Positions 4,948-18,480 of a stretch of DNA of 46,947 nucleotides are shown one piece after another. The stretch is from contig DASRER010000045.1 of the NCBI GenBank assembly GCA_035651995.1, forward strand, positions 1-46,947, in the 5' to 3' direction. The stretch's first letter is position 1. The number at the start of each line of letters is the position of its first letter. Position numbers and translations under genes: made by a program. The notes beneath the pieces are model-generated. The model was given only the letters and a program-made list of their open reading frames with translations, did not search any database and was not told where the DNA came from. Origin of the DNA: Terriglobales bacterium. GTDB taxonomy: Bacteria; Acidobacteriota; Terriglobia; Terriglobales; Acidobacteriaceae.

Positions 4948-5103
4948 GTCATCCCGAGGAGCGGAGCGACGAGGGATCTGCTTTTGATTCTCGGTGGAAG
5001 CACCGGGCTTTAGCCCGGTGAACAAACGCGGAACAGCTCGGGGCTTTAGCCCCGGAACGAAAGAGTGTTCCCACGTCCGCGCCGTGTTTGCGGCGAGCAC
5101 GGA
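4948..5103. repeat. Cluster of three dispersed repeat elements downstream of the multicopper oxidase
   Basis: Three elements lie in tandem. At 4948-4980 is half of the GTCATCC...GGGATCT element that is complete at 8580-8692. At 4991-5055 is a two-palindrome module: CACCGGGCTTTAGCCCGGTG (5001-5020) and CGGGGCTTTAGCCCCG (5039-5054). At 5064-5103 is a degenerate copy of the CCCACGT...GCGCCG element. The last two recur in the same orientation, but in reverse order, at 6443-6698, on the other side of the membrane protein gene. No T-run follows the hairpins. Confidence 0.75.
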
Positions 5104-6323: not shown

Positions 6324-6442
6324 GTTTGCCTCCGGTCGAGCGGGCCCGGGGCCTATCGCGAATTGCGCGCCATTATGGCCATCCGCCCGCCAGACGCAAG
6401 GGAAATCTGCAACGCGGACCCACGAAAGGATGGCCGCGCAGA

Positions 6443-6698
6443 AGGCGCCCACGTTCGCGCCGCGTTCTTTGCTGCGCTAACGTGGGGACAACCGTCCAAA
6501 CGAGGCACTTCACGTTGTAGCGACGGGCGCCCTCGCCCGTCGGCGCGCCGCAGGCGCGCTTGGAAAATAGCCCGGCGCTTCCAGCGCCGGGTACGGCGCC
6601 ACCAGAGAATGCCGTCCCGTAGGGACGGCATCTCGGTGGGAGCACCGGGCTTTAGCCCGTTGAATACAAGCGCTCACCAATCGGGGCTATAGCCCCGG
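6443..6698. repeat. Palindrome-rich region: one inverted element and six perfect hairpins in tandem
   Basis: The intergenic stretch 6324-6993 contains no gene that I can support. It starts with a CCCACGTTCGCGCC element (arms 6448-6461 and 6473-6486). Six perfect hairpins follow: 6521-6542 (9-bp stem), 6543-6559 (7 bp), 6571-6591 (9 bp), 6609-6631 (10 bp), 6643-6662 (8-9 bp) and 6682-6697 (7 bp). Stem sequences differ from each other; the last two match the module at 4991-5055. No T-runs follow, so these look like REP-type elements rather than terminators. The remainder (6699-6944) is less structured, and a second -10-like TATAAG sits near 6803. Confidence 0.8.
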
Positions 6699-16384: not shown

Positions 16385-17079
16385 TGCTGCCTCCCTGCCT
16401 GCGCCGGATCGCGAGTGAGTGTGACCGGAAGCGTCACGGTTTCGATCTGGCTGCCACGCGTCCACTCGATGCGCACGCCGCACGGCAGGCGATCGTGCTG
16501 CTCGGGGTCCCACTCGGCGATCCACTGCGCCGGCTGCTGCGGCGTTGCGGTCAGCAGGTAGGCAAGGCGGATGCGATCGGCGGGATCGCCCACCGGCTCG
16601 CTGGCCGGCTCAACCCATCCGCCGAAGCGCAGGCCGTAGTCGCGATACAGCTCGCGGACGATGGAGTCGTTGTCGGTGAGCGCAGATTCGCTGACGAACA
16701 GTTGGCGCTTGCCTTCGGGCGCTTCGGCCACGCGGTAGCGCGCGAGAAACGCGGGCCGCGAGCGGTCGGCCTGCCAGGACTCACCGCTCACAAAGCGCAG
16801 TTCCGTGGACGAGCCGCTGAAGTCAACGATCGAAATGGGTTTTTCATCGCGTTTGATTTGCAGGACGCGCGGCGAGGCAGCCGCAACCTGGCGCGCGAGC
16901 AGCTCGACCCCGGCCACGACGCGGGCGCGATCGGCAAGGCGCTGTTCGCCGCGGCGCCATGCGTTCGCGCCCAGGCGCAGGCCCATGAAGAGGATGAGGA
17001 TGATGGCGGACGTCATGCTGATGGCGATGACCACCTCCATCAGGGTGAAGCCGGCGGAACGCGGGCGCTGGCGGGTCAT
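16381..17079 (-). CDS. gspJ: T2SS minor pseudopilin GspJ
   Basis: GspJ is a minor pseudopilin of the tip complex. The 232-residue product begins MTRQRPRSAG, with the prepilin cleavage site before FTLMEVVIAISMTSAIILIL (Glu at +5). A long beta-rich domain follows that ends near WTRGSQIETVTLPVTL. The ATG at 17077-17079 overlaps the gspI stop (ATGA), which decides against an upstream in-frame ATG ten codons earlier. Its own stop overlaps the GTG of gspK. Confidence 0.9.
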   Translation of the reverse strand: MTRQRPRSAGFTLMEVVIAISMTSAIILILFMGLRLGANAWRRGEQRLADRARVVAGVELLARQVAAASPRVLQIKRDEKPISIVDFSGSSTELRFVSGESWQADRSRPAFLARYRVAEAPEGKRQLFVSESALTDNDSIVRELYRDYGLRFGGWVEPASEPVGDPADRIRLAYLLTATPQQPAQWIAEWDPEQHDRLPCGVRIEWTRGSQIETVTLPVTLTRDPAQAGRQQ

Positions 17080-17543
17080 CGCTGCGCCTCCGGCGCTTGC
17101 TGCGCCCATTGTGTGGTTTCGAGCGCGTAAGTGCGCGCCTCCCGGGCCTCGCCCCAGGCGACTTCGACGCGGATGCGGAACAGCCCGTAGCCGGCGAGCT
17201 GCGGCGCCGGACCCGGCGCTGGATCGATCTGCACCCGCCAGCGGTAACCGTCGTCCCAGCGGCCCGACGTTGTGCCGGCAGCGAGCTGCTCGTTGAGGAG
17301 CTGTTCGCTCATCTTCTCGCGCGCGTGCAGCAGGGCCGTCTCGTGCGGCCGCATGCGGTCGAGATTGCGCAGCGACTGCGACATGAGCGACACGACAGCG
17401 ACAAAAGCGGTCGCCATCACCACCGAGGCGACCAGGACTTCCATGAGCGTAAAGCCGCGCTGGGCTACGCGCTTCCCCACGTTAGCGGCCAAAAGACGGC
17501 CGCGAACGCGGGACACCCTCATAAGTTGGGCACGCCTCTTCAT
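17076..17543 (-). CDS. gspI: T2SS minor pseudopilin GspI with repeat-derived long leader
   Basis: GspI is the minor pseudopilin thought to start the tip complex. The mature part begins FTLMEVLVASVVMATAFVAV (Glu at +5) after AQRG. Residues to the C-terminus fit GspI (ERMSEQLL-like: HAREKMSEQLLNEQ, then a small beta domain). The leader is unusually long, about 30 residues, because residues ~11-23 (SRVRGRLLAANVG) are encoded by a palindromic dispersed repeat (17476-17512). The ATG at 17541-17543 overlaps the gspH stop (ATGA), supporting the long form; an ATG at residue 8 (17522) would still include the repeat. The peptidase GspO that would cut it is not in the window. Confidence 0.88.
   Translation of the reverse strand: MKRRAQLMRVSRVRGRLLAANVGKRVAQRGFTLMEVLVASVVMATAFVAVVSLMSQSLRNLDRMRPHETALLHAREKMSEQLLNEQLAAGTTSGRWDDGYRWRVQIDPAPGPAPQLAGYGLFRIRVEVAWGEAREARTYALETTQWAQQAPEAQR
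17476..17512. repeat. Palindromic dispersed repeat inside the gspI coding sequence
   Basis: Arms CCCACGTTAGCGGCC (17476-17490) and GGCCGCGAACGCGGG (17498-17512) match in 13 of 15 pairs, with a 7-base loop. The same element, with the same CTTT-type loop, lies in intergenic DNA at 6448-6486 (arms CCCACGTTCGCGCC and TGCGCTAACGTGGG). A degenerate copy is near 5070. Confidence 0.75.
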
Positions 17544-18043
17544 TCGACCACCTCATCGCGCAGATACAGCGGGCTGACGCGGGCGCGAGCGGTGAGCGGG
17601 TCGAGCGTGATGTCCACCCGGCTGCCGCGCTGGTTGGTCAGCTCCAGGCGGGCGCGCTGGCTGGTGCCGTTGGGGAAGAAATGCAGCGGCGGCAGGTCGC
17701 GCGTCCACGCGTCGCGCGACTGTTCAAGTTTGAGTTGAACCTGCGCCGGTAACGTGAGGCTCTGGATGGTTTTACCGTCGTCGCGAACGAGCAGAAGCGT
17801 TTGTGGCGCCTCCGGCTCGGGGCTGCGCAAAACCGAGTAGCTGCGCGCCTCGTAAATGGCGTGGGTGCGCGCCTGCGCGTAGAAGTTCGACAGCGAGCCG
17901 GCGGCGAGGCGCAGCTCCAGGTTGGCGAACGAGCGCGTGACGCTGGGCATGACCAGCGCGGCGGCGACTGCCACAAGCGCCAGCACGACCACAAGCTCCA
18001 TGAGCGTGTAGCCGCGTTGGCCGGATTGGTGAGCGCGCGTCAT
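17540..18043 (-). CDS. gspH: T2SS minor pseudopilin GspH
   Basis: GspH links the tip complex to the GspG shaft. The 167-residue product starts MTRAHQSGQRG, with cleavage before YTLMELVVVLALVAVAAALV (Glu at +5). It continues with the usual SLSNFYAQARTHAIYEARSY helix and a beta-sandwich. The ATG at 18041-18043 overlaps the gspG stop (ATGA); a longer reading adds an Arg-rich stretch made from the gspG 3' end and is rejected. Confidence 0.9.
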   Translation of the reverse strand: MTRAHQSGQRGYTLMELVVVLALVAVAAALVMPSVTRSFANLELRLAAGSLSNFYAQARTHAIYEARSYSVLRSPEPEAPQTLLLVRDDGKTIQSLTLPAQVQLKLEQSRDAWTRDLPPLHFFPNGTSQRARLELTNQRGSRVDITLDPLTARARVSPLYLRDEVVE

Positions 18044-18480
18044 TTCCAGGAAACAACGTCTGCGTTGATGCCGTCGCCGCCTTCGCGTCCGTCGGCGCCG
18101 TAGCAAACGATTTCGTAATCACCGTGATCACTGGGCTGCTTGTAGTGGTACGGATTGCCCCACGGATCCATCGGGACTTCCTTGGGGATGTAGGGACCGT
18201 CCCACTTGTCCACGCCGCTCGGCTTGGTGCGCAGCGCCTGGAGCCCCTGCTCGGTCGTCGGATACGAGCCGACATCGAGGCGATAGGCGTCGAGCGCGGT
18301 TTCCAGAGCCGAGATCTGCGCTTTGGCGGCGTTGACCTTGGACTTGTCCACGTTCTTGAACAGGCGCGGGACCACGAGCGCGGCGAGCATCGCCAGGATG
18401 GTGAGGACCACCACCAGCTCGATCAGGGTGAAGCCGCGTTGACGTTTTTGCGTCCGAGTGAAGCGCATGCTCTTCCTCAT
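18040..18480 (-). CDS. gspG: T2SS major pseudopilin GspG
   Basis: GspG polymerises into the pseudopilus shaft. The 146-residue product has leader MRKSMRFTRTQKRQRG, cleavage before FTLIELVVVLTILAMLAALV, and the family hallmark SYPTTEQGLQAL. The C-terminal calcium-site region reads WDGPYIPKEVPMDPWGNPYH and ends GADGREGGDGINADVVSWK. The ATG at 18478-18480 overlaps the gspF stop (ATGA). Confidence 0.96.
   Translation of the reverse strand: MRKSMRFTRTQKRQRGFTLIELVVVLTILAMLAALVVPRLFKNVDKSKVNAAKAQISALETALDAYRLDVGSYPTTEQGLQALRTKPSGVDKWDGPYIPKEVPMDPWGNPYHYKQPSDHGDYEIVCYGADGREGGDGINADVVSWK

Follow-up and report, generated by a model that had tools for sequence, protein, structure and literature searches.

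How does a palindromic repeat that lies mostly outside genes come to encode part of the leader of a type II secretion protein, and does the protein profit from it? The question is raised by a 46,947-nt contig of a Terriglobales bacterium (DASRER010000045.1), which was analysed at its full length and is referred to here as the window. An imperfect palindrome with 15-nt arms lies on its plus strand at positions 17476–17512, as had been proposed, inside gspI (17076–17543, minus strand), which encodes a 155-aa minor pseudopilin with a 30-aa leader. The name gspI, assigned from the ORF, profile matches and operon, is a probable one: the gene belongs to a gsp-type operon, and its GspI-type matches fall short of the curated cut-offs (NCBIfam gspI, 42.4 bits with a cut-off of 44.35; XpsI, 61.8 bits with a cut-off of 150); for the same product, the NCBIfam prepilin domain and Pfam N_methyl both scored above cut-off. 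Upstream lies gspH (17540–18043, minus strand; Pfam GspH 20.2 bits, cut-off 21; N_methyl above cut-off), for which the start at 18043 was chosen within a longest ORF beginning at 18106, and whose stop codon overlaps the gspI ATG (ATGA). We consider it highly probable that a dispersed REP-like palindrome, probably moved by a REP-associated tyrosine transposase (RAYT), was captured in frame by the 5′ end of gspI, where it is tolerated in a lengthened leader. The original prediction had described a domesticated REP-type element; the capture is supported, while domestication amounts to tolerance, with no sign of usefulness.

The GspI leader, MKRRAQLMRVSRVRGRLLAANVGKRVAQRG (17454–17543, minus strand), is followed by the prepilin motif FTLMEV, and cleavage is expected after its last glycine. 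The palindrome falls between the start codon at 17543 and this cleavage site, where its core encodes SRVRGRLLAANVG, and the whole element accounts for about half of the 30 residues. As predicted, the insert is in frame: the reading frame is open throughout, so that ribosomes starting at the ATG must read the element. The added positive charge was likewise confirmed: 3 of the 13 core-encoded residues are K or R, and the 30 residues together hold 10 K/R and no D/E ahead of an N_methyl domain above cut-off. GspI thus has the hydrophilic, basic leader ending in Gly before FTLxE that defines class III (prepilin) signal peptides. According to passages in PMC10191384 and PMC4471445, the positive-inside rule retains such leaders in the cytoplasm; their length varies, and cleavage follows the final Gly. 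A stretch added upstream of QRG^F should thus be tolerated if it is hydrophilic and basic, because all that the leader has to do is remain cytoplasmic, hydrophilic and basic, have a terminal Gly and be removed. Other systems process leaders of 6–26 aa, or of about 15–30 aa in type IVb, as a section of PMC4471445 describes; at 30 aa the GspI leader stands at the upper end of this range, and its cleavage may thus be less efficient.

A Shine–Dalgarno-like GAGGTGG (17548–17554, minus strand) precedes the first ATG. Among the five in-frame starts of gspI, duplex energies computed against an assumed 16S 3′ end were −10.4 kcal/mol for this ATG, −5.8 and −5.0 kcal/mol for the next two, −1.7 kcal/mol for a TTG and −1.5 kcal/mol for a GTG within the element (17478–17480, minus strand). 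If translation began at this GTG, in the distal arm of the palindrome, the leader would be VGKRVAQRG, and the element would be extragenic, its hairpin serving as a 5′ spacer or control element. Such a leader, at 9 aa, is of ordinary length, and part of PMC3733652 reports that REPs at the N-termini of ORFs are often extragenic because starts are misannotated. In a second pseudopilin gene of this genome, on contig C42, the GTG within the family copy has the better Shine–Dalgarno duplex (−8.3 kcal/mol versus −5.4 and −4.1 kcal/mol for two upstream ATGs), and the element may there supply both start codon and ribosome-binding site. The gspI GTG, however, has no Shine–Dalgarno sequence and would be buried in the stem, and it is the first ATG that has the strong duplex and overlaps the gspH stop. 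We regard an extragenic position as unlikely; under in-frame capture, translation would begin at the first ATG.

Conservation of the same residues in distant GspI proteins that lack the repeat family had been named as the finding that would make the match coincidental. No such conservation was seen in 101 homologue loci (34 from the genome search and 67 from the related-loci search), where the best match reached 5 of 13 residues, below the mean best match of 6.3 for 50 shuffled 13-residue queries against the prepilin-type ORFs of these loci. The class-wide GspI search matched 86 of 299 genomes, with loci taken from the best matches only; none of 36 same-family relatives gave a gspI match better than E 2e-4, and the 60 relatives drawn included no congener. 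The distance from the gspH stop to the start of mature GspI is 86 nt here versus a median of 23 nt in 65 measurable rows (of 85 rows, 20 could not be measured, and each of two loci contributed two); the median was also 23 nt without our own row and the second rows (n=62). As 5 of the 65 rows exceeded 86 nt, long gspH–gspI spacers are uncommon but not unique.

The nearest relative found, G182, is among these five (128 nt), its GspI being 51% identical and the next one 34% (class search, best matches). The G182 gspI starts on the gspH stop, as read by eye (SD duplex −9.3), and its leader of 43 residues contains a different palindrome, GTAGGGGCACGCTGCAGCGTGGCCCTAC. With up to 3 mismatches, this pattern occupied 30 distinct places in G182 (hand count, leader copy included) and none in our genome, and the reversed control had no match, so that two unrelated repeat families are present in one orthologous leader in two lineages. 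Since G182 belongs to another taxonomic family, its leader is no model of the pre-insertion state here.

Folded as RNA, the core at 17476–17512 gave −22.6 kcal/mol on the plus strand and −27.3 kcal/mol on the minus, coding strand (z −4.8 and −6.4, respectively). A coding-strand hairpin of this stability, in a palindrome that is intact although its inner stem letters differ from the consensus, might have been kept for control of translation or of mRNA decay in the gsp operon. We judge this very unlikely, as the intact stem may reflect recent insertion only, and the varied frames and orientations of captured copies, together with the unrelated palindrome of G182, argue that no particular sequence is kept, though different palindromes might share a hairpin role. 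The family consensus has no stop codon in 4 of its 6 reading frames, and captured copies occur in different frames and in both orientations, suggesting tolerance rather than selection for one peptide.

The gspI palindrome had been assigned to the same family as an intergenic copy at 6448–6486. This assignment was confirmed by the pattern CCCACGTTNGCG..CGCNAACGNGGG, which was found at 7 distinct places in the genome (10 matches, both strands; reversed control 0), and by a model, R3. The family unit is an imperfect palindrome of about 37–40 nt with an asymmetric 8-nt 3′ tail, GCRCCnTC; in the gspI copy the tail is ACACCCTC (17513–17520), and because other copies share it the copy extends beyond the core, over 17474–17520 (plus strand). 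R3 was built from 25 copies outside genes, 4 of which overlap the edge of a called gene by 5 or 10 nt. The gspI copy was excluded from it, as were 12 further copies located within or close to ORFs and 7 whose E exceeded 1e-4. R3 scored the gspI copy at 46.7 bits and the intergenic copy (6441–6488, minus strand), which was among those used for the model, at 61 bits (E 6.2e-12), and the best match in the window outside these two places had E 0.13. A further model, R1, was built from 7 copies including the window copy, which makes its score for the gspI copy circular, and R3 is cited instead. Across the 25 copies, 91.2% of pair cells were standard pairs and 5 of 15 pairs showed a double change; the covariation score was reached in 3 of 500 shuffles. 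No Rfam family was found in the window at gathering scores. A coincidental palindrome in GC-rich coding DNA has next to no probability: its arms are GC-rich, and one arm alone, with at most one mismatch, should turn up by chance about 2 to 3 times in a window, but the model made without the gspI copy gave it an E-value of 1.2e-8, the tail is conserved and the reversed pattern had no match.

A target-site duplication, hinted at by KRRAQ before and KRVAQ after the element, was considered and dropped after a flank-to-flank alignment test (p 0.041 for the gspI copy; p < 0.05 in 5 of 45 copies, with 2.25 expected). The window also holds another repeat, TCTCGGTGGNAGCACCGGGCTTTAGCCCG, in two copies that are 88% identical (4989–5030 and 6631–6672).

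The number of copies in the genome and the share within genes, which the original prediction had proposed to count, came to at least 45 distinct places at E ≤ 0.01, counted by hand with 150 of 6275 first-look candidates scored, and 9 of these were judged to be within genes. Gene calls came from a hexamer score trained on our own data, with no standard gene finder, and the places were labelled by hand: 27 overlapped no called gene, and a further 9 were edge cases or doubtful, 5 of them falling in mechanically extended ORF starts only and 4 sharing 5 or 10 nt with the edge of a gene. The family is therefore of REP type in the broad sense, being a dispersed, imperfect palindrome of 20–40 nt in many copies that is mostly extragenic (27 of 45 places clear of called genes). 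The GTAG/CGTC end tag of the two described REP super-families is absent, the consensus ending in TTCCCCACG and GGGGCRCCnTC, so that the term does not hold in this narrower sense. In a search with R1 (strict filters, 109 candidates scored per genome), 17 of 61 genomes had matches at E ≤ 0.01, all of them within the 37 genomes of the same taxonomic family, our own included; the remaining 24 genomes had none.

The clearest in-frame capture is that in valS, where the copy encodes PHVSADEAGVNTG. The gene is open, and its homologues are without the insert in all 29 aligned relatives, none of which agrees with it at more than 4 of 13 letters (29 of the 43 relatives matched by the search were aligned, and G007 was examined besides), a behaviour like that of Rickettsia palindromic elements (RPE). 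In G007 the same loop carries an insert of its own of about 73 residues (G007:C63:500-1600, 380–640), other relatives having roughly 4 to 17, and this insert contains three copies of GGCGCGGGTTNACCCGCGCC and a GGGGGCTTTAGCCCCC palindrome that differs from the valS element here and was not found in 359 other loci. Like the GspI leader, the valS loop is a place in a protein where two lineages carry different palindromes.

The remaining in-gene copies lie at various positions. In lolA (G000:C37, 1470–2156) the copy encodes PRVRAALSAALTWG, comprising the n-region and part of the hydrophobic core of a presumed signal peptide, and just two start codons precede the assumed mature start, both of them upstream of the element. 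In an amidase gene (C47) it occupies the presumed n-region of the signal peptide. The second pseudopilin gene (G000:C42, 1366–1977) has its copy directly before KRRSQRG^LTLVEL. Its distance equals that in gspI, and so does its orientation if judged by the better R3 score (34.9 vs 29.1 bits). Its G015 ortholog begins, without the element, at an ATG with MRKLRSQRG^LTLVEL, and the leaders of other orthologs vary much. Copies are near the C-terminus in hemA and a radical SAM protein, and internal in a PMT_2 membrane protein and in argS, the latter weak (27.1 bits).

The first 40 codons hold three of the 9 in-gene copies (gspI, lolA and amidase; p 0.067 if a share of 11% is assumed). The C42 copy lies in codons 41–54 of the longest ORF and counts as a leader copy only if translation starts later than the longest-ORF start; counting it raises the figure to 4 of 9 (p 0.012). 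Both p values are post hoc, so that the enrichment is suggestive only. All four leader copies are antisense (that in C42 by its R3 score), the valS and hemA copies being sense, and the antisense consensus translates as EGAPRSRRVLCGANVG or RVPHVRAAFFAALTWG, basic and then more hydrophobic; as there are four cases, this bias is a lead only. It is possible, if somewhat doubtful, that in this clade mobile palindromes repeatedly end up in cleaved N-terminal leaders, both prepilin and Sec, the antisense repeat perhaps being pre-adapted as an export signal. If so, the lolA element would provide part of a signal-peptide core and the C42 element perhaps a start codon.

Mobilization of the family by RAYTs is likely, judging by analogy with known systems. 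The Y1_Tnp domain, which is that of RAYTs and also occurs in IS200-type transposases, had matches in 33 of 41 genomes searched; our own has 3. At one locus (G005:C85, 1150–2150), chosen because copies had already been seen there, a Y1_Tnp gene broken by an internal stop has one family copy on either side, the two in inverted orientation (40.8 and 39.2 bits). Family copies at E < 0.1 were present at 2 of the 15 Y1_Tnp loci searched, 9 of which come from genomes holding the family, and 13 had no convincing copy. In our genome, weak copies (23.1 and 23.4 bits) were found near one Y1_Tnp gene and none near the other two.

Taken together, family membership, in-frame position, start context, absence of the residues in homologues and the capture in valS are computed results, and the course of events that they suggest is as follows. 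Palindromes of the family would be moved by RAYTs, and one copy would have inserted into the 5′ end of gspI while keeping the frame open, so that about half of the class III signal peptide, now longer, is encoded by it. Prepilin peptidase would cleave this leader normally, leaving the mature pseudopilin unchanged, and the insert would be selectively neutral. The case suggests that throw-away leader peptides can absorb dispersed palindromic repeats: a probably selfish palindrome does no harm because the peptide that it entered is discarded, and in one gene this has involved different repeats in two lineages. It opens tests of which protein sites tolerate in-frame insertion, and of whether the length and charge of export signals drift through repeat capture.

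Reports of REPs in prepilins or signal peptides were absent among the matches listed in the open-licence literature, which is weak evidence of absence, and the words "leader" and "pilin" do not occur in the main text of PMC3733652. The repeated use of cleaved leaders and the presence of two unrelated families in one orthologous leader seem to be new. Intragenic REPs and Rickettsia palindromic elements are precedents for the insertion of palindromes in genes. As described in part of PMC3733652, intragenic REPs are, like the family here, short palindromes that are mostly extragenic, sometimes lie in genes including those for tRNA synthetases, and are associated with RAYTs; two Xanthomonas recB genes carry different REPs at about the same site. 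Unlike those REPs, as far as that part goes, our family is without the GTAG/CGTC tag, occupies at least 45 places and has several in-gene copies in cleaved secretory leaders. RPEs, which PMC3733652 also mentions, are likewise palindromes tolerated in protein-coding genes, also at N-termini, but differ from our family in sequence and in host, and RPE-1 is the longer element according to that paper. The REPIN/RAYT systems of Pseudomonas (PMC3116915) also combine non-autonomous palindromes with a tyrosine transposase, an arrangement that the inverted pair in G005 resembles, whereas our family consists mostly of single units and is without the GTAG tag known from those REPs (PMC3733652).
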